From positions 1 to 64,000 of the forward strand of contig JACPAL010000016.1 of the NCBI GenBank assembly GCA_016180855.1: a DNA stretch of 64,000 nucleotides. The letters are read 5' to 3'. This document shows, one piece after another, positions 18,979 to 59,647 of the stretch. The notes under the pieces were generated by a model, which saw only the letters and a list, made by a program, of their open reading frames with translations, was not told where the DNA came from and did no database searches. The position numbers and the translations under genes are program-made. Position 1 is the stretch's first letter, and every line of letters starts with the position of its first letter. This stretch comes from Deltaproteobacteria bacterium. Its GTDB lineage: Bacteria > UBA10199 > JACPAL01.

Positions 18979-19021
18979 ATCAAAGTGGTTTTTTAAATAA
19001 AAAATAGATAGTGGCTATTTT

Positions 19022-19078
19022 CGGAAGAGTGGCTCAGAAATAATCTTTACGCGCGAAGCCGCGAGGAGAGCGCCGCAG
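19022..19078 (+). repeat. Dispersed repeat, copy A (57 bp), abutting an ABC gene start
   Basis: The 57 bases match 47991-48047 in reverse complement with one mismatch. The copy ends at the base before the ATG of the ABC ATPase gene. Its GAGGAGAG segment (19062-19069) is the only Shine-Dalgarno-like sequence in front of that gene. Copy A lacks the second palindrome arm that copy B has. Confidence 0.9.
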
Positions 19079-33673: not shown

Positions 33674-35491
33674 CTATCGATTGATATGGATTGTCACTGT
33701 ATTGTCGTTGCTATTCGCAACCGCCAAGTCGAGCGCCCCGTCTCCGTCAAAATCACCGATTTCAACACCAGTGGGTTGATCTCCAACCGTTAAAAGGGCT
33801 TGGGTATCAAAGGTACAATTCCCCTTATTCAAAAAGATGGAGATAGTATCATCTATTGTGTTTTTACCGGCAATATCCAGATCACCATCCCCATCAAGAT
33901 CGGCACAAACATTGGCGCTCGCTCCATTACCTGCCGTTAATGTAGTGCTTTCTGAAAAACTGCCACTCCCATTATTTTTGACCACAGAAATGGTGGTCCC
34001 CGCCCCCTGATTAGCGTTGCCGGCAAACAGGTCCTCATCTCCATCGGCATCGCAGTCACAGCTAACAACACTTAAAGGGCGGGCCCCTACAGAGACGGTG
34101 GAGCTACTCCCGCATGTCAAGTTTCCACTACAGGAAAAAACTGTCAGACTGTTCGCCCCGGCCCCTCCATTCGCAACAGCAATATCGAGATCCCCGTCGT
34201 TATCAAAATCGGCCATCGTAATTAAATTGGGTCCCGTCAATCCTGTGAGCGTTGATGTAACTGTAAAAGTGCCGCTGCCGTTGTTGGACAAGAGGGAAAC
34301 GGTATTCCCATCCTCATTCGTTACCGCTAAATCAAGATCTCCATCATTATCCAGATCGCCGGGCATCACAATAAAAGGGGCATCCCCCACGGTAACATTA
34401 GTAGCGGTTCCAAATGAGCCCGAACCATTGCCGAGCAAAATCGAGATGCTGTCACCCGCATCATTGGCTGTCACCAGATCCAGGTTTCCACTCCCATCAA
34501 AATCCCCCGTGGCAATACCAAATGGTCCCAGCCCAACATTGAAATTAGTACCACCCCCAAAGGTTCCATCACCATTTCCAAAATAACAGGTGATCGTTGT
34601 CCCAAGATTGTTGTTATAATTGGTGCAGCAAAGATCATGACGAGAATCCCCGGTATAATCTCCGACGGCACAGCGACGTGGCTCGACCCCTCCCGCCACT
34701 AAGGTAGCAGTTCGGCTAAAGTTTGTCCCTCCTGTTCCCCTTACAAAGAGGTTTGTTCCATTGGCCACTTCAGTTTTATCAATCGTATTGTCAGCGTCTC
34801 GATCCGTCGTTGAATTGTCACTCGTTGGGTTGAGACCTTGGGTAGGCCTAAGCAGGGCTGTTACATTTCGGGTACAGAGTGTTGAATTCTTGCAGGTACA
34901 CCAGGTCCATCCATGAGCACTGACAAAAGGTTTTTGTCTGAAGAGGCACTCCTTCCAATCATTGATAGAATCCCCATCGGCATCATTCAAGACAAATGTT
35001 GTTGAATCGCTTTTAGAGCCTTCTGTAACCGTATAAACAACTTCAATATCGGCCTTCGTTGTTGAATTAGTCGGGATCGTCGTGTTGCCACTTGAAAGCT
35101 TGAGTTCTCTCGTGCCGGTGTCAAAGGTAAGGCCTGTTTCGGTCGATAATCCGGTCATTGAATAGGTCAATGTCGCACCACTCGTTGAGGCAGTTCCTGC
35201 CGGCATCGTAATGGTGGTAAACGCCTCTCCAGGGACAATACCGAGCGTATTTGTAGTGGTATTTGTAACTGCTGTTCGCACCGTGGTAGCCGTCGGTGCA
35301 TCCGGGGTCCCTGAACTGCCGCTGCCGCCATTATCCCCGCCTCCCCCTCCTCCACCTCCCCCAGAACTCTCAGAACTAGAAGTGCTTCCCCCGTCATCAA
35401 GGGAGGCGGCACATCCCATCAGAAGTGACAAGAAAAACGCCAACCAAACTGGAAAAAGTCGGAAAATGTAAAGCTGAGACCTTCTCTTCAT
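33674..35491 (-). CDS. FG-GAP/VCBS-repeat lipoprotein with polyglycine linker
   Basis: 605 residues: lipobox LLMGC (C27), then a Ser/Gly-rich linker with nine Gly in a row, a beta-rich domain (about 65-165, cadherin/Ig-like by pattern), a Cys-bearing segment (WCTCKNSTLCTRNV), and then about seven FG-GAP/VCBS repeats (DFDGSGNLDLV, DLDNDGDLDLAV, DFDNDGDLDIAV and similar). The DxDxDGxxD loops should bind calcium and form a beta-propeller. Surface-exposed recognition or adhesion is likely, ligand unknown. Confidence 0.87.
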   Translation of the reverse strand: MKRRSQLYIFRLFPVWLAFFLSLLMGCAASLDDGGSTSSSESSGGGGGGGGGDNGGSGSSGTPDAPTATTVRTAVTNTTTNTLGIVPGEAFTTITMPAGTASTSGATLTYSMTGLSTETGLTFDTGTRELKLSSGNTTIPTNSTTKADIEVVYTVTEGSKSDSTTFVLNDADGDSINDWKECLFRQKPFVSAHGWTWCTCKNSTLCTRNVTALLRPTQGLNPTSDNSTTDRDADNTIDKTEVANGTNLFVRGTGGTNFSRTATLVAGGVEPRRCAVGDYTGDSRHDLCCTNYNNNLGTTITCYFGNGDGTFGGGTNFNVGLGPFGIATGDFDGSGNLDLVTANDAGDSISILLGNGSGSFGTATNVTVGDAPFIVMPGDLDNDGDLDLAVTNEDGNTVSLLSNNGSGTFTVTSTLTGLTGPNLITMADFDNDGDLDIAVANGGAGANSLTVFSCSGNLTCGSSSTVSVGARPLSVVSCDCDADGDEDLFAGNANQGAGTTISVVKNNGSGSFSESTTLTAGNGASANVCADLDGDGDLDIAGKNTIDDTISIFLNKGNCTFDTQALLTVGDQPTGVEIGDFDGDGALDLAVANSNDNTVTIHINR

Positions 35492-47825: not shown

Positions 47826-47834
47826 AATTCACTG

Positions 47835-47908
47835 TGGGCACGACTGGACTCGAACCAGTGACCCCTTCCATGTCAAGGAAGTACTCTAACCAACTGAGCT
47901 ACGTGCCC
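47835..47908 (-). tRNA. tRNA-Val (anticodon GAC)
   Basis: Minus-strand cloverleaf: acceptor GGGCACG with CGTGCCC, D loop AGTTGGTTAGA, anticodon loop TTGACAT, T arm ACTGG-TTCGAGT-CCAGT, discriminator A. CCA is not encoded. It is only 10 bases before thrS, so the two probably share a transcript. Confidence 0.96.
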
Positions 47909-47931: not shown

Positions 47932-48047
47932 AAATAACTTTACGCTTTGTCGCCGTTCGTAGAGTGTCCTCGACGTACAGACAAGTACGCCTGCGGCGCT
48001 CTCCTCGCGGCTTCGCGCGTAAAGATTATTTCTGAGCCACTCCTCCG
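47932..48047. repeat. Dispersed palindromic repeat, copy B (full-length)
   Basis: Arms aaataactttacgc (47932-47945) and gcgtaaagattattt (48017-48031) are near-perfect inverses, giving an element of about 100 bases with an inner hairpin around gtac..gtac at 47973-47988. Bases 47991-48047 match copy A (19022-19078) in reverse complement with one mismatch. The core 47971-47995 is shared, apart from the loop, with the element inside cdd at 59236-59260. Confidence 0.85.
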
Positions 48048-48147
48048 AGTTAGTCAACGTATTCACCGGACATCGGACTAAATATATAACCCATTGGAAA
48101 TTCAGTGCTTTTAAAGATTGGATTGCAATGTGTCAAGGAGATATCTG

Positions 48148-48342
48148 CTAATTTCCGGTCGATGGAAGAACGACTTGGCCCTGTACCCGAATGGTTGTCT
48201 CCTCCTCAGGAAGCGATTTCCCCTCGCCCGTAACCTCTTCCACCTGACCTGAGGCCTCCCCCATACGATTATCAATAGCAGCCGAGCAACCGGTCACCAA
48301 TATGATCGCCACGATGAGAAATTTTGTAAATTTGAGTGTCAT
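48148..48342 (-). CDS. Small lipoprotein downstream of the giant Calx-beta gene
   Basis: 64 residues. Signal peptide with lipobox VTGC (C19) and a mature acidic part of 46 residues (ASGQVEEVTGEGKSLPEEETTIRVQGQVVLPSTGN). The ribosome-binding site GGGAGGG is strong. It starts 23 bases after the giant gene stop, so the two are probably one operon. No family recognised; a role in anchoring or export of the giant protein is only a guess. Confidence 0.7.
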   Translation of the reverse strand: MTLKFTKFLIVAIILVTGCSAAIDNRMGEASGQVEEVTGEGKSLPEEETTIRVQGQVVLPSTGN

Positions 48343-48365: not shown

Positions 48366-51300
48366 CTAGTGACGTCCTAACCCTCTTCCATCTCCTTCAT
48401 CATCCTCTTCGTCGTCATCGTCCCCATGACCGTTTCCATTACCATTGCCATTTCCGTTCCCGTTATTTCCTTCTCCACCGTTCCCACTCCCCCCTTCATG
48501 ACTGCGAACGGAAGGAGGAGCTGGCTCCTCATCCTCGTCATCATCAATCAGAGGGACTGATGGGGCAGGAGATCCAATATCTTCCTCTTCTTCAGAGAAA
48601 TCAACCGTCTCAACTGGAGGAGCTGGTGGTGCAGGAGGGGCTGTCTCTTCATCATCTGTTCTCCGCTCGCCATCGTCATGATGGCCATTGCCATTCCCAT
48701 TACCGTTGTTCCCTTCTCCACCGTTCCGATTCCCCTCTCCATCACTGACAACGGGGGGAAGGGTCTCAACCGGAGGAGCTGGTGGTGCAGGAGGCATTGT
48801 CTCTTCATCATCAGAAATGATCGGGTCAACAGGTCTCGGTGATTCATTGACATCGGGCGGCGACATCTCTGTACCAAAAATGGGACCACTCGTCACACCG
48901 TCATTACGATTGTCGTTACCATTTCCATTTCCGCGGCGGCCTTCCTCCTCCTCTTCTTCAAAAAACTCACGCAGATTGTCGAGCAGCCAGCGAGGATTAA
49001 CGGTACGACCAGCCTCGATCTCAGAGGCAATGTAGTGAATAATCTCATCCCGATGTCTTTCGATTCTTTGCCGATCTCCCGACCCTGCCATCTGCATGAT
49101 CTCGGTCATGAGATGGGCAAGAATTGCCATGTTGTCGGGGGGAAGAACCATGCCAGTTGACTCCTCCGCCTCCCGGATCACCTCCACGGTCTCCTGAACA
49201 ACCTCCATGAGATTCTCCGCAGACGTTTCATCTTCTCCGGCAGCATTCAGTGAGCCGGCCACGACAACCGCCTCCTCATGGTTCTCAACCAGGGAGTAAT
49301 CGTCTGCTGCATGCATCTCGTCCACGAGATCAGCAACGATATTGAAAATTTCCCCTGTATTGACCACTGATTCATCGATCCAGTCCTCATCCATCGCATG
49401 GGTGATATCAACCATCACCTCTAAGCCTTTCGCATCCTCATCAATGACCTCACAGGCCGTTGCATCTCCCATCGCAAAAGAACTGGTAAAATCGGCCACG
49501 GAGCGAATAACCTTCTGCGTCTTGTGGATCTTCTCCTCAAACGCCTCCTCTTTCAAACCACAGCCATCACTCGCATAATTCGCCACGGCCTGGAGGACTT
49601 CCTCTCCAATTCTTCCTGAGGAGAGATCACCCATCAGTTGTCCGTAGTTACGGCACCCAAGTTTAGAACAGGAGATTCCGCGCGCCATGAGGCAGCCAAT
49701 CGCCTTTCGGAAGGTGCCAACGACCCCACCGATCCCGGAGAGGGCATCGTCCGAACGGCTGAAGAACCGGTTCGCAAACGTCTCTGCACAGGTCGCTCTG
49801 GCACTGATCTCCTCGGAATGACCTCCCAGGTTTTCACTGATCTGTTCGCGCAGGAGACTGAGCGAGAAGGTGCTATCAATATCAACAGTACCAATAGGGA
49901 AAGATTCCTTCCTTGCCTCCCCCAGCGTCGTCTTCATCTCCGCATATTTCTCGATCACAAGGTGCCCAATAGAGGCTGTGAAGACGACCTTGAGACTGCT
50001 GAGGTGAGCAACATGGATCTCCTGAAGATTGCTTTCACTCGGATCGACCGCCCGCATAAAATTAATATCCATTGAAAAACTGCAGTCGGGATTGAGCGTT
50101 CCCTGTCCCACCATCTCACCCGTCATCAAATTCGTCGCGACCACCGTTCCGCCGGCGCAACTCGAGACGACCGTCTCACCGATCGTTTCGGTCTCCACAA
50201 CAGGGACCGGGGTTGGCTCCGGAGTTGGTTCCGGCCCGGGTTCCTGCTCTGGCTCTGCAGCAACATCGTTATCGACGACGGTCACATTAATATTGCTGAT
50301 GGGGGCCACGGCATAAAGGGGATCAAGACTCGTTACCGCCTGGAGAACAGAACTGGCATGGTTCCCTTCAATCTCTTGATCGTCGACGGCTGTGAGGGTG
50401 ACCGTCTGGGAAACATTCCAGTCAAGCGCCGTAAAGACAAGCATCGCCTGATCCGTACTAACTTCTGCATCTGTGCCGAGGGTCACCGTTACATCCGACA
50501 TCGGCTCGCTCGTCAGAACGACCTCGTAACTATCGGTCGCTCCCCCTTCTGACAGAACGGTTGCCCCCGCTGATTCGGTGACGACAAAGCCCGCCGTATC
50601 GTCATCACTGATCGTAATCTCCAGAGGGGTAACGACTAATGCATTAAAATTGTTATCGGTGCTTGTCGTGGCAAGTGAGAGGGAGGCGTTACGCGCCCCT
50701 TCGTCACGTTTATTGTCAACAGCACCCAGCGTAACGGTCTGGAAATCATCCCAGTTATCAGAAGTGAAAGTCACACCGTTCGTATTGACTGTAACGCCCG
50801 TATCGGTAGTCAATGTCACTGTCACATCGGCCTCAGGCTGGGCGCCCAAGACCAGTGTAAAGCTGTCAGCTCCTCCCCCCTCGCCAACGAGATTACTACC
50901 GCCGGAGAGGCCAACGAGCAGGGCCGCCCTGTCATTCTCCGTGATTTGAACATTGACGGAGGCAACTGAAATTGCATTGTAGAGTGGGTCGGTGCTCACG
51001 ACAGCATGGGTAATCGTTGAACCATGGTTTTCGGCCTCAACACGTGCATCATCAACTGCTGTCACCGTAACGGTCTGGGGCTGATCCCAATTGGCCGCGG
51101 TAAAGACCAGATTGTTCCGATCGACCGTCACCTGACTGTCTGTGGTAACCGTGATCGTCACATCCGCGGTCGGCTCGCTCGTCAGAACGACCTGATAGCT
51201 ATCAGTCGGACCTGCCTCGGTCACACCGGTTGAGCCACCAGTCTGGGTAACTGAGATGCCGACAGAATCGTTGTCGGTAACCGAAGCAACAACGTTGCCG

Positions 51301-54300
51301 ACGGAAATCCCGTCGTAATCGGTATCGGAGGCACTCGTAACAATATGACTGATCGTAACACTGGATACCTCCTCGTCCAAATCATCATTGGTCGCCGTCA
51401 CCGTCACTGTCTGCGGTGAGTCCCAGTTAGAGGCATTGAAAATGAGTTCGGAGGTACTAACCGTCACTCCGAGATCGGTATCGGAAGAGGTGATCGCAAC
51501 GGTCACAACACCGCGTGGACGACTTGTCAGCACAACCGTGTAATCATCCGTTGCGCCGCCTTCCGTCACATTAGTGCTGCCTCCCGAAGAGGCAACGCTC
51601 ACACCAGCGGAATCGTTGTCTACGATACCGACCATCAAATCACCCAAGGAGACTCCATCGTAATCCGGATCATCGGAAGAGACGGTGTGGGTAATCATTC
51701 CCGAATGATTCCCTTCGGCATCGTCGTCATCGACCGCAGAGAGCGTAATCGTCTGGGGAACCGCCCAGTTCTGGGATGTGAAGAGAACAGTTGTCTGATC
51801 GGCAACAATCTGGTTGCCCGTATTGAGCAGGATCGTCACATCAGCAGAAGGCTGGCTGACCAGAACAAGGCTATAGGCGTCAGAATTCCCTCCCTCCGTA
51901 AGACTGGTGGAGCCCCCTGTCTCCGTCAAAGAAACAGTCCCGCGGTCATCATCCGTGATCGTCAAGGCATACAAATCATTGGCACCCAGAACGGCATTTG
52001 TGGGAAGAGACAGGCTGATTTCAACGCTCTCATCCCCCTCATCGAGGGTATCATTCACAATCGACAGGGTTATATTTTTCGTCGTCTCTCCGGGATTAAA
52101 GAGGAGGATCCCATCCGTCAGAGAATAATCGGTTCCATTTCCCGTAGCGGAACCACCCGTCACTGTATAGAGGACCGACACCGTCTGGGAGGTATTACCC
52201 TGGAGGGCCACCTCCATCGTGACATCTCCCGTCGATTCTCCCTGACTTGAATTTGAGGCGGTAAATGCCACGCTGGGTGTCGAATCGGTGTCCTGTATTG
52301 TCAACAGACCGACGGCATCTCCCAGCGTGGCATTGGTGGGGGAGCTTAAAGTAATCTGAATCGTCTCATTCGTCTCATCAATATTATCGCCCAGGAGTGA
52401 CACGGCAATGGTCTTGCTTGTCTCTCCGGGATTGAAAGAGAACGGCCTCTCTGAGGCAGCGATATAGTCAGAACCTGCCGTGGCCGTCCCGTTCGCCGTT
52501 GAGAAATTAGCCGTTACGTACCTCCCGCTGGGGGTCGAGAGAGAAACCGTCATCAAGGCAAAAGAGTCTGTCAGGGGCTCATCGACAACCAGATCATTGA
52601 TCGAAAGTTGTGGGGCATTATCATCATCCGTGATTTTGACCGTATGCACCATTGTTCCACCTTGAGTTGCATTATGTGGTGTCCCCATCGTCAAAACGAT
52701 CGTCTCATCATCCTCATCCAGGAGATCATTCGTTAATGTGACCGTAATATCCGCCGTCATCGATCCCGCAGGGATCAGAAGCGGGGCAGCACTGACAGTT
52801 CGATCCGAATCCCCGGCCGTCCCGGTCACCGCAAAAGGAACGTCAACATCAAACCCGGAAATAGCTGAGAGCGAGGCCGTCACGGTCAGTGAACCGGCAT
52901 TCTCGGTGGCATCCTGTACACTAGAAGTGAAGTCAACCGACGGGGTCGCATCATCGTCGGTGATCGTCGCGGTATGAACCGTTGCCCCCCCGACCGTTGC
53001 ATTGGTCGGTGCCCCCATCGTCACAATAACCGTCTCGTTATTCTCATCGAGCGTGTCATTTGTTACGGCCAGCGTGATTGTTCCCGAGGTGGAGCCGGCT
53101 GAGATCGTGATCGGACTCGAGGTTGCTGTATAATCCGCCCCTCCTGCGGTTCCACTCAACACAAATGGAACCGTTACATCCAATCCCGAGGATTGCGAAA
53201 GTTGAGCGGTCACAGTGACCGACCCGACGCCCTCGGATTCACTTTGTGAGGTCGTCGTAAAATAAACTATAGGAGGTGAATCATCATCCGTAATCGTCAC
53301 GGTATGAACCGTTGTCGCCCCGACCGTTGCATTGGTCGGTGCCCCCATCATCACAATAACCGTCTCGTTATTCTCATCGAGTGTGTCATTTGTTACGGCC
53401 AGCGTGATTGTTCCCGAGGTGGAGCCGGCCGGGATCGTGATCGGACTCGAGGTTGCTGTATAATCCGCCCCTCCGGCGGTCCCACTCAACGTAAATGGAA
53501 CCGTTACATTCAATCCCGAGGATTGCGAAAGTTGAGCGGTCAGCGTCATTGTACCGATGCTCTCGGCACCACCCTGAGAGGCCGATGTGAAAGAGATCGT
53601 CGGACTCGCATCATCATCCGTTATGGTGACTGTATGTACCGACGTCGCGCCAACCGTTGCATTCGTTGGTGTCCCCATCGTTACAATAACGGTCTCGTTA
53701 TTCTCATCGAATGCGTCGTCAACAGGGGTCACCGTAATCGTGCCACTGTTTGCGCCAGCGGCAATCACGATCGAACTTGAACTGATACCATAATCAAGGC
53801 CGGTCGCCGTACCGCTAACTGTTAATGGAACAGTTACAACCAATCCCGAGGCCGCCGAGAGGTTCGCGGTGATCGTTATGGCCTCGGCCCCCTCCGCCCC
53901 CGATTGTGAATCCGAACTGAAGGTAACGACAGGTGTCACATTATTATCCGTAATCGTCGCCGTATGGGTCGTGACCGCTCCCAAGGTGGCATTGGTCGGC
54001 GCTCCCATTGTCAGGATAACCGTCTCATCATTCTCATCCAGGAGATCATTCGTTAATGTGACCGTAATATCCGCCATCATCGATCCAGCCGGAACCACAA
54101 GCGGGCTAGCGCTGACAGTTCGATCCGAATCCCCGGCCGTCCCGGTCACTACGAAAGGAATGCTAACATCCAATCCGGAAACCGCCGAGAGGAAGGCCGT
54201 CACCGTCAGTGAACCGGCATTCTCGGTTGCATTCTGTCTATCAGAGGTGAAGGCAACCGACGGTGTTGCATCATCATCCAGGATCGTCGCGGTATGAACC

Positions 54301-57300
54301 GTTGTCGCCCCAATCGTTGCATTCGTGGGAGATACCATTGTCACAACAACCGTCTCGTTATTCTCATCGAGCGGGTCATTGATTACGGTCAATGTGATCG
54401 TTCCCGAGGCAGAGCCGGCCGGGATGACAAGCGGGCTCGAGGTCGCCGTATAATCCGACCACACTCCCGCGGTTCCAGTCAGTGTAAATGGAACGGTTAT
54501 GTTGAGTTCAGACGCCGATGAAAGCTGCGCTGTTACTGTCATCGTACCAACCCCCTCGACTCCGTTTTGGGATGCTGATGTAAAAGAGACTGTAGGGGGA
54601 ATATCATTGGCACTGATCAAGATCGTATGGCTCATATTGGAGCCTGGATTGGCATTATCAATGTCATTAATCGTCAAAACGATCGTCTCTGGGCTCTCTT
54701 GTTCCGTATCGTTGATGAGCGTTACGGGGATATTAACAGAGGTAGAACCCTCGGGTACTGTTACCGACCGGGCCGTGAGGGTGTAATCCGTACCGCCTCC
54801 CGTTGCGGTTCCCGTCACGTTATAATTAACAATGACGTCCCTTCCAACGACCTTGGAGATCCGTACAGAAACATTGACAACCCCATCACTCTCCGAGACG
54901 GTCTGCGAGGCACTCCCAAAATCAGCCAGAGAGCGATCATCATCGTCATCAATCTCTGCCGTGTGTCTGATCGTTGCCCCCTGTGTGGCGTTGACCGGCG
55001 TCCCCATATTAACAATAATCTTCTCATCATGTTCATCCAAAACATCATCAACCACCGTAATGACAATAGCCGCCGAGGCCGAACCGGCCGGGATTGTCAC
55101 GGGGCTTGCTGAAATTGTGTAATCGATTCCCCCTGTGGCAATGCGTGACCCCGTGGTCGTGATTGTAAATGGGACCGTCACATCCCGTCCTGAGACAGTC
55201 GAGAGAGCGGTGACAATATTCATCGTCCCGATGACTTCCTTCTTCTTCTGCGAACTGCTCGTAAAGGTGACGGTCGGTGTGGCATCATTATCAGTAATGG
55301 AGACCGAATGGACGGGAAGTGGTCCCAGTGTGGCATTGGTTGCCCCCCCTAAAGAGATCACGACGGTTTCATTATCTTCATCGAGGGTATCATTTACCAG
55401 CGTTAGCGCCATCGTCACGGAGGCCGACCCGGCCGGGATTATGAGCGGGCTAGCGGACAAACTGTAGTCAACCCCTGCCCCGGTCGCTGTACCGGAAACG
55501 GTAAACGGGACCGTCACCTCTCGGCCTGAAACAGGTGAAACGGTTACCTCAATCGAGATCGTACCGAGGTTTTCGTTCTTTTGCTCATCGGAAAGGGTAA
55601 ATGAGACATAGGGGAGATCATCATTGTCGTTTATTGTCATGGTATGCGAGGTAATCGCCCCTGCCGTTGCGTTCGTGGGAGATCCCATCGTCACCACAAC
55701 CGTTTCGCTATCTTCATCAAGGGCATCATCGGCTAATGTCAGCAGAATCGTACCGGAGCTTGAACCAGCCGGGATCGTCAGCAGACTATCTGTTACTGTG
55801 TAATCGGCCCCTCCGGCCGTTCCACTGAGAGAGAACGGGACCGTCACCTCCTGGCCTGAGATACCCGAGAGCTCGGCGATAATATAAATCTCACCGCCAC
55901 TCTCTACGACACTTTGAGAGGCCGCTGAGAATGAGACCGTTGGTGGGAGGTCATTATCAACAAGTGTCATGGTATGCGTTGTGACAGCCCCCAGAGTGGC
56001 GTTGGTCGGCGACCCCATTGTCAGGATAACCGTCTCATCATTCTCATCAAGTGCATCATCTGTCGCCTGCAGTAGAATCGTTCGTGTCGTTGAACCAGCC
56101 GGGATCGTGATCGGACTGCTGAAATCAAGGTTATAATCACCGACCCCTGCGGTACCGCTGATCGAGTAGGGAACCGTAACGTCTCTTCCTGAAACAGCAG
56201 AAAGGGTAATGCTTATAGCAGTTGCAACAGGCCCCTCCTCGCCCGCCGTGTCAGTGCTTCTTGTAAAGCGAACCGTAGGAACGGCATCATTATCAAGAAT
56301 CGTCCCGGTCGCTGGTCCCGAAACCGCATTCGTTCCATTAATGACAGAGGCAACCGATGCCACCACGGTTTCATCATTCTCATCAAGGGCATCATCCACA
56401 ATACTCAAATTGATAAAGGCATAGAGATTCCCTGGGGTTATAACAATCGAGGGAGAGGGAGCGGTATAGTCACTGTTCAAGGTCGCCGTACCACCCAAGT
56501 TGAGATTAACAGTGACATCCTGACCCGAGGCCTGAGAGAGCGTCGCCATAAATCGGATTGCAGCCCCAGGAAAATTTTCCAGGTCGAGTGAGGGATCACC
56601 ATTAAGATCAAGCGCCGTCACGCTCGGAGGGTCATCATTATCACCGATACTGACCGTATATTCACTGCCGGTCCCTGAAATGATCGGGGCGTTCGTTGGA
56701 TTCGTGAGCGTAAAGATGAGCGTCTCGGTCGCCTCATCAATCGCATCATCCACGATAGAAAAAGTGACCTCCCTGAAGGGACGACCTCCCGTCTCCATGC
56801 CGATCGGGTAGGTCAATCGCTGTGTTGCAGGCACCCCGTGAAAATCGTAAAAGGAGGCCGCTGTACCGGAACTGGCCACATCAACAGTCACCGTCTTTTC
56901 AACATAGCTCGTGAGATAAACTCGGACAGAACCATCACCTGAGTTTTCGAAGGTCCCAATGCCTGATGCCGGTTCGGTAAAGCTGCTACCTGAAAAATAG
57001 ATCTCAGGGGCCGCATCGTTGTCGGTAATCGTGATATCGGCCATGGAAGAGGCATTAATGGTTGCGTCTCCGGCATTCGTAAAATTAAGATAGAGAACCT
57101 CATCAAACTCATCGATCGCATCTCCATGAATATCAACGACGACATTTTTTTCTGTCTCTGCAGGGAGAAAACTGAGTGAACCGCTGGCTGTTGAATAATC
57201 AGTCGTGTAGGCTGAAGAACCGCTCCGTCGCATTAAAGAATAATTGACGGTCGCATTAACCTCAGAGGCCCCCTCCTTCAAGACCCTGATCGTGACCCTC

Positions 57301-58814
57301 TGGGTACCGCTATCCCCTTCAGTCACGGAAACGGCATCGTATCGGATCAGGGGTGCCGCATCGTCACTGGCAATACGCATCTGAAAGGTATCGGATCCGC
57401 CAACCCGACCGTTGGTTGCGGAACTAATGGAAATCGTCACGTTCTCCAACGACTCATAAGCAGAGTCATCCGTCGCAGAGACGGTCAATGACCCGGTTGT
57501 CGATCCGGCAGGGATCACGAGGCTGGCCGGTCCGCTATAATCCCCTGGCGAGGCCGGGATCGCTGGATTGGCAAAGCTACCGACATAAGAGAGGTTGACG
57601 GTCACATCCTCCGCAGCAAGGCGATCCAGACTAACTCCAATCTCGACAGAGGCCCCATTTTCCGTAGCGATCCCTGAAAAACTGGTAAAGTCGACGATTG
57701 GATAGGCATCATCATTCTGGATCGTCGCCACACCAACTCTTTCGCTCTCTGCCATCGTTGTATTCACGGGGTTTGAGAAATTGATCTGGAATGTCTCATC
57801 CTCTTCAACGAAGAGATCGCCACGAACCGTCACACTGACCGTCTGTGAAGTGGTGCCCGGCAAGAAGGTGACTGTCCCTGTTGCCGCCAGATAATCACTC
57901 CCCGCCTGGGCCGTTACATCCTGGGTTGAGAAATCGACGTTCACGGTCTGGCCACTCGCCGGTCCAAGAAAGAGGGTGAATGAAACCGTGTGGTCTTCAT
58001 GCGCCTCAAGAAATGATATGGTATTGGTGAGTGTCAAGGCGGGCAGAGGATCATTATTGACAATTGTCCCTTGGCCCGTTCCGTCCGTGATCGTCGCATT
58101 AGTTGGATTCGAGAGATCAACAAAAAAGGTCTCATCGGCCTCATTAAGATTTTCCCCAATAACGGAGACAGAAATAGTTCTGGAGGTCTCGCCGGGAGTA
58201 AAGGTCAACGTCCCCGTGGTTGAAGTATAATCCCTCGGCCCACTGGCAGCCCCTACGGCCGTTCCATTTCGAGTCGCAAAACTGACCGTAACGGTATTGA
58301 CAGGAGCGATCGAAAGGGAGGCCGTGAATGTTGCCGTTGCGGGAAGACCATCTGTCTCAACCACAGAAACGTCATTAATGCTGATTGCTGGCACATCATC
58401 GTCGGTAATTGTATAGGTGTGGAGATCATTGGCCCCCTTGGTCGCATTCTGGGGGTTTGTCAAACTGATCTCGATCGTCTCATCCGGTTCATCGATCAGA
58501 TCGTTTGCAACGGTGAATGTAAGTGTTTGGCTACTGACCCCGGATCCGAACGTAAGCGTCCCGCTCTCCAGAGAGTAATCAACATCCCCACCGGTTGCTG
58601 TCCCGCCGGTCACATCAAAATCGATCTTCGAGGTTCCAGCGAGGGGGATTGATCGGGTTACGGTGATATTAACTGTCGTGGTTGATTCGCTGCCCGAAGA
58701 AGAGCTAGTGGCAAACTGGATGTTGGAAAGCCCCGCGAATGCCTCAGATCCAAACGCGAAGACCCCCAGAAGGCCAACCGCAAAAAGGTATCTATGTAGA
58801 AGTCTCTCCCCCAT
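48366..58814 (-). CDS. Giant secreted Calx-beta repeat protein (3482 residues)
   Basis: Signal peptide (MGERLLHRYLFAVGLLGVFAFGSEAFA), then about 20 Calx-beta modules of 110-115 residues (about 28-2290), each with DYxxxSGxLxxxPGxxSxxxxxxxxxDxxDExxETxxxxLxxPTNA and ending DDD or DND. Five related modules of another type follow (about 2290-2850, GGSTxVTEGGATDSYxVVLTSxPxADVTVT). A Pro/Glu linker leads to a unique Cys-bearing helical region (about 2870-3280). The tail (3285-3482) is Glu/Asp clusters, PPAPPAPPVET repeats and GNGNGN blocks. Calx-beta domains bind calcium and occur in surface adhesins, so an extracellular fibre is likely. No cell-wall sorting, autotransporter or clear type I signal was seen. 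Confidence 0.93.
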   Translation of the reverse strand: MGERLLHRYLFAVGLLGVFAFGSEAFAGLSNIQFATSSSSGSESTTTVNITVTRSIPLAGTSKIDFDVTGGTATGGDVDYSLESGTLTFGSGVSSQTLTFTVANDLIDEPDETIEISLTNPQNATKGANDLHTYTITDDDVPAISINDVSVVETDGLPATATFTASLSIAPVNTVTVSFATRNGTAVGAASGPRDYTSTTGTLTFTPGETSRTISVSVIGENLNEADETFFVDLSNPTNATITDGTGQGTIVNNDPLPALTLTNTISFLEAHEDHTVSFTLFLGPASGQTVNVDFSTQDVTAQAGSDYLAATGTVTFLPGTTSQTVSVTVRGDLFVEEDETFQINFSNPVNTTMAESERVGVATIQNDDAYPIVDFTSFSGIATENGASVEIGVSLDRLAAEDVTVNLSYVGSFANPAIPASPGDYSGPASLVIPAGSTTGSLTVSATDDSAYESLENVTISISSATNGRVGGSDTFQMRIASDDAAPLIRYDAVSVTEGDSGTQRVTIRVLKEGASEVNATVNYSLMRRSGSSAYTTDYSTASGSLSFLPAETEKNVVVDIHGDAIDEFDEVLYLNFTNAGDATINASSMADITITDNDAAPEIYFSGSSFTEPASGIGTFENSGDGSVRVYLTSYVEKTVTVDVASSGTAASFYDFHGVPATQRLTYPIGMETGGRPFREVTFSIVDDAIDEATETLIFTLTNPTNAPIISGTGSEYTVSIGDNDDPPSVTALDLNGDPSLDLENFPGAAIRFMATLSQASGQDVTVNLNLGGTATLNSDYTAPSPSIVITPGNLYAFINLSIVDDALDENDETVVASVASVINGTNAVSGPATGTILDNDAVPTVRFTRSTDTAGEEGPVATAISITLSAVSGRDVTVPYSISGTAGVGDYNLDFSSPITIPAGSTTRTILLQATDDALDENDETVILTMGSPTNATLGAVTTHTMTLVDNDLPPTVSFSAASQSVVESGGEIYIIAELSGISGQEVTVPFSLSGTAGGADYTVTDSLLTIPAGSSSGTILLTLADDALDEDSETVVVTMGSPTNATAGAITSHTMTINDNDDLPYVSFTLSDEQKNENLGTISIEVTVSPVSGREVTVPFTVSGTATGAGVDYSLSASPLIIPAGSASVTMALTLVNDTLDEDNETVVISLGGATNATLGPLPVHSVSITDNDATPTVTFTSSSQKKKEVIGTMNIVTALSTVSGRDVTVPFTITTTGSRIATGGIDYTISASPVTIPAGSASAAIVITVVDDVLDEHDEKIIVNMGTPVNATQGATIRHTAEIDDDDDRSLADFGSASQTVSESDGVVNVSVRISKVVGRDVIVNYNVTGTATGGGTDYTLTARSVTVPEGSTSVNIPVTLINDTEQESPETIVLTINDIDNANPGSNMSHTILISANDIPPTVSFTSASQNGVEGVGTMTVTAQLSSASELNITVPFTLTGTAGVWSDYTATSSPLVIPAGSASGTITLTVINDPLDENNETVVVTMVSPTNATIGATTVHTATILDDDATPSVAFTSDRQNATENAGSLTVTAFLSAVSGLDVSIPFVVTGTAGDSDRTVSASPLVVPAGSMMADITVTLTNDLLDENDETVILTMGAPTNATLGAVTTHTATITDNNVTPVVTFSSDSQSGAEGAEAITITANLSAASGLVVTVPLTVSGTATGLDYGISSSSIVIAAGANSGTITVTPVDDAFDENNETVIVTMGTPTNATVGATSVHTVTITDDDASPTISFTSASQGGAESIGTMTLTAQLSQSSGLNVTVPFTLSGTAGGADYTATSSPITIPAGSTSGTITLAVTNDTLDENNETVIVMMGAPTNATVGATTVHTVTITDDDSPPIVYFTTTSQSESEGVGSVTVTAQLSQSSGLDVTVPFVLSGTAGGADYTATSSPITISAGSTSGTITLAVTNDTLDENNETVIVTMGAPTNATVGGATVHTATITDDDATPSVDFTSSVQDATENAGSLTVTASLSAISGFDVDVPFAVTGTAGDSDRTVSAAPLLIPAGSMTADITVTLTNDLLDEDDETIVLTMGTPHNATQGGTMVHTVKITDDDNAPQLSINDLVVDEPLTDSFALMTVSLSTPSGRYVTANFSTANGTATAGSDYIAASERPFSFNPGETSKTIAVSLLGDNIDETNETIQITLSSPTNATLGDAVGLLTIQDTDSTPSVAFTASNSSQGESTGDVTMEVALQGNTSQTVSVLYTVTGGSATGNGTDYSLTDGILLFNPGETTKNITLSIVNDTLDEGDESVEISLSLPTNAVLGANDLYALTITDDDRGTVSLTETGGSTSLTEGGNSDAYSLVLVSQPSADVTILLNTGNQIVADQTTVLFTSQNWAVPQTITLSAVDDDDAEGNHSGMITHTVSSDDPDYDGVSLGDLMVGIVDNDSAGVSVASSGGSTNVTEGGATDDYTVVLTSRPRGVVTVAITSSDTDLGVTVSTSELIFNASNWDSPQTVTVTATNDDLDEEVSSVTISHIVTSASDTDYDGISVGNVVASVTDNDSVGISVTQTGGSTGVTEAGPTDSYQVVLTSEPTADVTITVTTDSQVTVDRNNLVFTAANWDQPQTVTVTAVDDARVEAENHGSTITHAVVSTDPLYNAISVASVNVQITENDRAALLVGLSGGSNLVGEGGGADSFTLVLGAQPEADVTVTLTTDTGVTVNTNGVTFTSDNWDDFQTVTLGAVDNKRDEGARNASLSLATTSTDNNFNALVVTPLEITISDDDTAGFVVTESAGATVLSEGGATDSYEVVLTSEPMSDVTVTLGTDAEVSTDQAMLVFTALDWNVSQTVTLTAVDDQEIEGNHASSVLQAVTSLDPLYAVAPISNINVTVVDNDVAAEPEQEPGPEPTPEPTPVPVVETETIGETVVSSCAGGTVVATNLMTGEMVGQGTLNPDCSFSMDINFMRAVDPSESNLQEIHVAHLSSLKVVFTASIGHLVIEKYAEMKTTLGEARKESFPIGTVDIDSTFSLSLLREQISENLGGHSEEISARATCAETFANRFFSRSDDALSGIGGVVGTFRKAIGCLMARGISCSKLGCRNYGQLMGDLSSGRIGEEVLQAVANYASDGCGLKEEAFEEKIHKTQKVIRSVADFTSSFAMGDATACEVIDEDAKGLEVMVDITHAMDEDWIDESVVNTGEIFNIVADLVDEMHAADDYSLVENHEEAVVVAGSLNAAGEDETSAENLMEVVQETVEVIREAEESTGMVLPPDNMAILAHLMTEIMQMAGSGDRQRIERHRDEIIHYIASEIEAGRTVNPRWLLDNLREFFEEEEEEGRRGNGNGNDNRNDGVTSGPIFGTEMSPPDVNESPRPVDPIISDDEETMPPAPPAPPVETLPPVVSDGEGNRNGGEGNNGNGNGNGHHDDGERRTDDEETAPPAPPAPPVETVDFSEEEEDIGSPAPSVPLIDDDEDEEPAPPSVRSHEGGSGNGGEGNNGNGNGNGNGNGHGDDDDEEDDEGDGRGLGRH
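52991..53650 (-). repeat. Recent tandem duplication of one Calx-beta module (330-bp unit)
   Basis: Bases 52991-53320 and 53321-53650 are nearly identical across most of their length at DNA level, in register, with period 330. They encode modules 17 and 16. A further match lies four units away: the stretch starting ggagatcattcgttaatg at 52721 recurs at 54041 (offset 1320), modules 18 and 14. Confidence 0.8.
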
Positions 58815-59158: not shown

Positions 59159-59647
59159 TTAAGGGGTGTGTTGAAAAATGGCTTTTGGGGACTGTTCAAA
59201 AATGCCCAGCTGCAAGGCACCCCGAGGAGCCGCGACGCAGGCGTACTTGAGGGTACGTCGTCGTTTGGAAGTCCTCTTGTAGGGGACGGGGTAGAGGGCC
59301 GAGAGCGGGATCGTCCTCGTTTGTCTCTTCCGGTTGATCATGAGGATATCGATCTCTCCCGCCAGCTCCCAAATCACCTGACGGCAGGCTCCACAAGGAG
59401 AGATAAACTCTTCCGTATTGGCGGTTACCGCCAGCATCTTGAACCGCCGCTCACCCGCAGCAATCGCGTGATAAAATGCACCCCTCTCGGCACAGATCGT
59501 GAGGGCATAGCAGCAATTTTCGACATTGCCGGATGAAAAAATTTTTCCCGACTTGCAGAGAAGCGCCGCACCAACCCTCAATCCCGAATACGGACTGTAG
59601 GAGTTTTTACGGGCCCGAAACGCCTCAGCGACTAAACGGTTCTTCAT
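59159..59647 (-). CDS. cdd: Cytidine deaminase with a repeat-derived C-terminus
   Basis: 162 residues. Cytidine deaminase converts cytidine to uridine. Zinc ligands: ICAERGAFYHA (Cys, with catalytic Glu) and SPCGACRQV (two Cys). YSPYSGLRVGAALL is the family N-terminus. The normal end near the LPxxF-type sequence (here LYPVPY, about residue 121) is followed by about 37 residues encoded by a palindromic repeat element (59168-59270), with the stop just past its edge. The catalytic core looks intact. It overlaps hemA by four bases. Confidence 0.88.
   Translation of the reverse strand: MKNRLVAEAFRARKNSYSPYSGLRVGAALLCKSGKIFSSGNVENCCYALTICAERGAFYHAIAAGERRFKMLAVTANTEEFISPCGACRQVIWELAGEIDILMINRKRQTRTIPLSALYPVPYKRTSKRRRTLKYACVAAPRGALQLGIFEQSPKAIFQHTP
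59168..59270. repeat. Palindromic repeat element inside the 3' end of cdd
   Basis: Carries tgttgaaaaatggc and ttcaaaaatgcccagctgca, then the core cgcaggcgtacttg plus gtacgtcg (59236-59260). That core also occurs, with a different loop, at 47971-47995 within copy B. The element encodes the last about 30 residues of cdd. Confidence 0.7.

Follow-up and report, generated by a model that had tools for sequence, protein, structure and literature searches.

Results

The Giant Calx-Beta Gene and Its Module Array

The window analysed here, a stretch of 64,000 nucleotides, contained on its reverse strand a single ORF with an ATG start (48366–58814) encoding a giant Calx-beta protein of 3482 amino acids. 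Twenty Calx-beta (PF03160) stretches were recognised by Pfam, with an E-value of 8.6e-177 and a score of 577.9 bits for the whole protein, above the curated cut-off; 15 of the type-1 modules exceeded this cut-off alone. Cutting at the D-D-D linkers resulted in exactly 25 modules, with 20 of type 1 (51945–58733, residues 28–2290, delimited by Pfam and linker splitting) followed without any intermixing by five of type 2 (50265–51944, residues 2291–2850). This agrees with the initial annotation, which had counted about 20 Calx-beta modules and then five of a related second type. The two types shared 10–30% identity, and the type-2 modules were 36–53% identical among themselves. Identity between modules 16 and 17 reached 80% at the protein level and 87% at the DNA level, and modules 13 and 14 resembled 16 and 18 at 75%. 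The nearest module to M1 was M20 and the nearest to M2 was M19. These comparisons show that the array has grown through internal duplication, and its outer modules look old.

The acidic calcium-site positions of the type-1 modules (DY, DD, DExDE and the final D) were invariant or nearly so, and the closest solved structures by sequence were the calcium domains of NCX1 and CALX. With these sites kept and these structures as nearest neighbours, the modules would be expected, as members of the family, to bind calcium. The giant thus shares with NCX1 and CALX the PF03160 family (20 modules) and its acidic positions, but it is an exported bacterial tandem array and no exchanger. The type-2 modules had no match in Pfam. 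A profile–profile comparison of type 2 against type 1 gave a probability of 78% (E 1.9e-5), and the type-2 model (pLDDT 77) was an Ig-like sandwich, with CALX-CBD1 (TM 0.63/0.63, 16% identity) among its best two-way fold matches, in the company of many other Ig-like folds. The viral structure library returned Ig-like look-alikes and nothing more. The idea that the type-2 modules were exotic was dropped, as they are present in many other bacteria and have an Ig/Calx-beta-like sandwich fold.

Export Signal and Secretion Genes

The first 27 residues of the giant (MGERLLHRYLFAVGLLGVFAFGSEAFA; 58734–58814, reverse strand), read directly from the sequence, corresponded by inspection to a textbook Sec signal peptide with a basic n-region, a 13-residue hydrophobic core and AFA at positions −3 to −1, cleavage being predicted before G28. 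Signal peptides were also seen at the N-termini of the two relatives described below, in genomes G001 and G012. The initial annotation had seen no known export signal, a view that is contradicted by these peptides and by the outcome of a genome-wide check for secretion systems, which revealed a type II secretion (gsp) operon. In this contiguous operon GspC, GspD, GspE, GspF and GspG matched above the curated cut-offs and GspK below its own, with prepilin-like ORFs in between and a PilM-like ORF behind. With such an operon in the genome, a type II secretion route would be available to the giant. GspE itself (contig C2, locus L181, 9319–11049) showed an N-terminal match, above cut-off, to an MshE-type cyclic di-GMP-binding domain, so that type II secretion may be under c-di-GMP control. 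A PilQ-type secretin and TolC-family proteins were also encoded in the genome.

The C-terminus of the giant (...EGDGRGLGRH) had no hydrophobic segment and showed neither a Cys motif nor a membrane helix nor a basic tail. Sorting by a MYXO-CTERM or GlyGly-CTERM signal was ruled out, the matching C-terminus being absent. The only MYXO-CTERM match in the genome was sub-threshold and at another place, and NF038115 (SVAGG) matched the giant weakly, far under its cut-off, with the best stretch within the repeats. No RTX repeats were found in the giant by Pfam, and a LapA-domain match was sub-threshold. With a Sec signal peptide and no RTX match, the protein does not correspond to a type I-secreted RTX/LapA adhesin.

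The C-Terminal Domain Belongs to a Lipoprotein Family

Behind the array, on the same strand, were found a Pro/Glu linker (50166–50264, residues 2851–2883), a C-terminal domain (48957–50165, residues 2884–3286) and a tail rich in acidic, Pro-Ala-Pro and Gly-Asn stretches (48369–48956, residues 3287–3482). The tail is the Glu/Asp, PAPPAPP and GNGN segment seen at the outset, and the G001 ortholog had a tail of like character. The description of the region before it as a Cys-bearing helical domain held for the cysteines, of which there are eight, all within residues 2886–3121, but not for a wholly helical structure, since the first 120 or so residues form a beta part and the helical part comes after. 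Searches of Pfam, NCBIfam and solved structures gave no match to the C-terminal region, and no known sorting or autotransporter family was matched in the profile search. Single-sequence AlphaFold2 prediction of residues 2884–3287 (pLDDT 46) was too poor for a fold search and hinted at strands followed by helices. A contig search yielded no relative with the C-terminal domain alone and no conserved stretch with the alignment.

The region had been called unique, and this did not survive the use of a profile made from lipoproteins of the class in other genomes together with paralogues from the same genome, the giants being left out. This lipoprotein-only profile matched residues 2884–3178 of the giant with an E-value of 7e-19, and 200 shuffles were all at 0.18 or worse. 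In whole-genome searches with a 15-sequence profile, the class gave matches in 16 of its 46 genomes, and none was obtained from the 339 genomes outside it. On this profile evidence the C-terminal domain is a member of a class-specific lipoprotein family new to Pfam and NCBIfam.

Nearly all members of the family were lipoproteins, with a lipobox Cys and then, in order, a short linker, a conserved strand (strand A), the beta part, the helical part and varied C-terminal modules. By inspection, these modules were a beta-propeller-like repeat in one of the two paralogues of the same genome (on contig C17, the other being on C22), FG-GAP-like repeats in G016 and PQQ-like repeats in G037. Strand A has the consensus TVxLTGTVxAP (for example TVSLTGTVNAP), with V and P invariant in alignment A5. 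Most intact lipoproteins carried it behind the lipobox, and a few were without it by the regular expression used. Weak sub-threshold matches of intact members to CarboxypepD_reg, Big_6 and bMG3 fit a beta-sandwich and prove no membership. In genome G032 (locus L041, 8459–16489), a protein with a GCSL motif, a membrane helix and a basic tail was followed in frame, with no intervening stop, by a family lipoprotein (IGCGSARV...), a pattern suggestive of a fusion between two surface proteins or of a lost stop.

A Tiny Lipoprotein Gene Carries the Missing Strand

Three Calx-beta members of the family were not lipoproteins: the giant of the window, a protein of 1543 residues in G001 and one of 402 residues in G012. 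In all three the family domain was C-terminal and was devoid of strand A and lipobox; in the giant, the Pro/Glu linker lies ahead of the domain and does not contain the strand. Reading past the stop codon of the giant revealed an ORF that was absent from the earlier ORF reading of the window (48148–48342, reverse strand). It starts 23 nt past the stop, behind a strong ribosome-binding site (GAGGGAGGG), and encodes a tiny protein of 64 amino acids, MTLKFTKFLIVAIILVTGC-SAAIDNRMGEASGQVEEVTGEGKSLPEEETTIRVQGQVVLPSTGN. Basic and hydrophobic segments are followed by a VTGC lipobox, assigned by rule to residues 16–19, and the protein is predicted to be lipidated. Strand A (TTIRVQGQVVLPSTGN; 48151–48198), the proposed donor strand, occupies its extreme C-terminus, where the strand stretch reads TTIRVQGQVVLP.

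The same arrangement was found next to the two other strand-less proteins. In G001 the tiny lipoprotein ORF starts on the stop codon of the larger gene (GTGA overlap) and ends SKIILRGQLTPP. The G012 pair had been forecast from the pairs of the window and G001 before its discovery; here the tiny lipoprotein, MKWIKKSLYLLIIVFTISSC-GSEATSSSETTTEDGDQTDITGQIVLPSS, begins 19 nt downstream of the stop. The stop-to-start spacings were therefore 23, −4 and 19 nt, the ribosome-binding sites were good, and the three proteins terminated with IRVQGQVVLPSTGN, IILRGQLTPP and TDITGQIVLPSS, respectively, each immediately before the stop. The mature proteins measured 30 to 90 residues across the three genomes. 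Signal, lipobox and strand were kept intact in all of them, and the linker, acidic or Ser/Thr-rich, was variable with its sequence lost. In G012 (locus L051, 12283–12678), the start of the tiny lipoprotein occurred once more in clearly degenerate form, upstream of the cassette and separated from it by an ATPase gene.

The presence of strand A in the last 16 residues was evaluated with a BLOSUM-averaged profile, which replaced a first log-odds matrix too harsh to give a clear result. The shuffle P values were 0.0009, 0.0018 and 0.0004 for the tiny lipoproteins of the window, G001 and G012, the strand of G001 standing out only if the last 16 residues were considered. When the tiny lipoprotein was joined to the domain, the family score rose for the window and for G012 to a level reached by only 1 of 300 shuffles; the joined sequence of G001 scored no better, and 175 of 300 shuffles were as high. 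Three pairs are known, each taken from an assembled genome. A tiny lipoprotein whose start lay between −10 and +60 nt from the stop accompanied exactly 3 of 339 ORFs of 200 amino acids or longer, and these three were the strand-less proteins. The 339 ORFs came from the class loci examined, which were selected because they contain members of the family, further giant Calx-beta genes or secretion genes and are not a random sample; the negatives among them included other Calx-beta giants and intact lipoproteins.

History and Surroundings of the Locus

On one side the two genes are bounded by a tRNA-Val(GAC) gene (47834–47908) and on the other by a cytidine deaminase gene (59159–59647), both on the reverse strand. 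The window and G001 displayed the same gene order: thrS, tRNA-Val, tiny lipoprotein, giant, cdd, hemA. The G001 gene is, by this gene order, the positional ortholog of the giant. In three other families of the order neither cassette gene was present at the site, and tRNA-Val adjoined cdd or hemA. As the site is empty in these three sister families, the two-gene cassette was probably inserted once in the family beside tRNA-Val. Since then the array has come to differ strongly in length between the two orthologs, with 25 modules in the window against about 6 in G001, where delta-60-like repeats lie in front. The G012 pair occupied a locus unrelated to that of the window and G001. The three split domains formed a single clade (support 100/100) at about 24% identity, with the partner kept in all; such a well-supported clade at this level of identity indicates that the split state is old and that the partner has been retained through divergence.

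Several repeated sequences were observed in the window. The segment 59148–59260, which covers part of the cytidine deaminase gene at its 3' end, is a dispersed repeat of about 100–113 bp found at 40 or more places in the genome of 2.2 Mb; 14 copies were 95–100% identical over 90 bp or more, and a partial copy (47971–48010) lay beside the cassette. Segments 47991–48048 and 19021–19078 were inverted 58-bp copies, 98% identical, and segment 7106–7229 had 90% identity with a sequence lying close to a type IV pilus cluster on a different contig. A Ser/Gly-rich lipoprotein with FG-GAP repeats and an MGC lipobox, probably a surface protein, was encoded at 33674–35491.

Discussion

In three genomes, a protein whose C-terminal domain is homologous to a lipoprotein family is strictly paired with a tiny neighbour, and the strand and lipobox absent from the first are present in the second. 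We propose that the two genes form a surface-display cassette, in which a split lipoprotein, with its halves joined by strand complementation, anchors the giant; we would put the probability of this reading at roughly 60%. In this model, the first gene would supply a Sec-exported rod made of 25 beta-sandwich modules, with predicted stiffening by calcium and the lipoprotein-family domain at its end. The second gene, directly downstream and probably translationally coupled, would supply a signal peptide, a lipidated Cys, a flexible linker and one beta-strand, the counterpart of the strand that comes first in intact members, after the lipobox and ahead of the domain. Once in the periplasm, this strand with its lipid would fill the open edge of the C-terminal domain of the giant by donor-strand complementation. 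The two chains would thereby rebuild the lipoprotein fold. The giant would be tethered to the membrane by its C-terminus and its Calx-beta array would project away, type II secretion being the likely way outside. Physical complementation between the two proteins is what this pattern suggests to us, and we likewise infer the membrane identity and topology of the anchored giant, its type II export and a function in adhesion or matrix. Whether this amounts to a new kind of surface anchor, with a lipoprotein split at its first beta-strand and a lipopeptide peg of 30 to 90 residues capturing the C-terminal domain of the giant, is in our estimation an even bet.

The closest parallel is provided by the type V fimbriae of Bacteroidetes (Mfa1/Mfa2, FimA/FimB), in which a protease cuts off the lipidated first strand and the strand of another subunit is expected to fill the void (PMC5789003). 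A lipidated N-terminus followed by a separable first beta-strand, a void filled by another chain and a lipoprotein anchor are common to both systems (PMC5789003). In the fimbriae, however, the donors are fimbrial subunits and the strand is removed by a protease, whereas here strand and lipid lie in a separate tiny gene beside a Calx-beta rod. The giant has no lipobox, its C-terminal domain matched a solved fimbrial protein at chance level (E 0.21), and Pfam and solved-structure searches found no sequence relation to type V fimbriae. At the sequence level, the strand is absent from one chain and present in its partner, as would be expected of a donor strand. A split lipoprotein, or a lipoprotein donating a strand to an adhesin, was not found in the open-access literature.

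In Myxococcus, proteins with MYXO-CTERM become lipid-anchored and are transferred by type II secretion (PMC11980579). The MYXO-CTERM/myxosortase system resembles the proposed one in Sec export, surface display, a probable type II route and a lipid anchor at the C-terminal end (PMC11980579). The giant differs in having neither a Cys motif at its C-terminus nor a membrane helix nor a basic tail, and its lipid would be supplied by a second protein. Four other Calx-beta giants of the class (L183, L185, L186 and L187, in G022, G008, G021 and G016, respectively) were without the lipoprotein-family domain and ended with GGCSL or a similar Cys motif, a hydrophobic helix and a basic tail, in a MYXO-CTERM-like manner. 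The split lipoprotein may be the alternative of this family to the MYXO-CTERM-like C-termini of the other giants.

The tiny lipoprotein might be a decaying, functionless remnant of a tandem lipoprotein copy. The giant beside it would then simply be secreted by the type II route as a matrix or adhesion protein, its C-terminal domain being specific to the lineage. The lipoprotein paralogues of this domain in the same genome (C17 and C22) agree with such an origin, and the degenerate start in G012 demonstrates that such pieces can decay. We nevertheless regard it as unlikely: signal, lipobox and strand are intact in three genomes at about 24% domain identity while the linker varies in length and has lost its sequence, a remnant would not end each time just behind the strand, and the pairing is exclusive to strand-less proteins. 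The gene order, with the giant first and the lipobox piece second, also speaks against the tiny gene having been left over when a single lipoprotein gene broke. Lipoproteins that act as pilots are well known, and the tiny protein could serve the giant without donating a strand, for example as a chaperone or pilot to the secretion pore or by binding the acidic tail. The adjacent same-strand layout in all three cases and the variable, acidic or Ser/Thr-rich linker would suit such a partner, which we find less probable still because it leaves unexplained why the sole conserved part past the lipobox is the very strand missing from the domain of the giant.

It could also be imagined that the giant, like LapA or BapP, leaves the cell through a type I system and is retained by a module at its N-terminus. 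Repeats of the same kind are known in such adhesins (PMC12153261), and the genome encodes TolC-family proteins, to which the sub-threshold LapA-domain match may be added. The Sec signal peptide, the lack by Pfam of RTX repeats or any other domain at either end and the homology of the C-terminus to a lipoprotein family make this very improbable. BapP has a predicted Sec signal peptide and Calx-beta-like arrays with predicted calcium binding, and its export route is unsettled; signal peptide and arrays are shared with the giant (PMC12153261). Unlike the giant, neither BapP nor the Calx-beta or cadherin-like adhesins CabC and CabD are associated, in the passages drawn on here, with a lipoprotein-family domain or a tiny lipoprotein partner (PMC12153261).

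The two grounds on which the locus first drew interest fall, as an export signal is present and the C-terminal family is found elsewhere. It merits description because one domain is divided over two neighbouring genes. The way in which giant repeat proteins exported by Sec are held at the Gram-negative surface has often not been established. On the split-lipoprotein reading, a 16-residue peptide should bind a defined domain, and other giants could be searched by a simple rule: the small lipoprotein that comes next is inspected for the missing strand, its gene being so tiny that gene callers miss it. If the reading is true, a separately encoded lipid peg would represent a compact anchor for such proteins.
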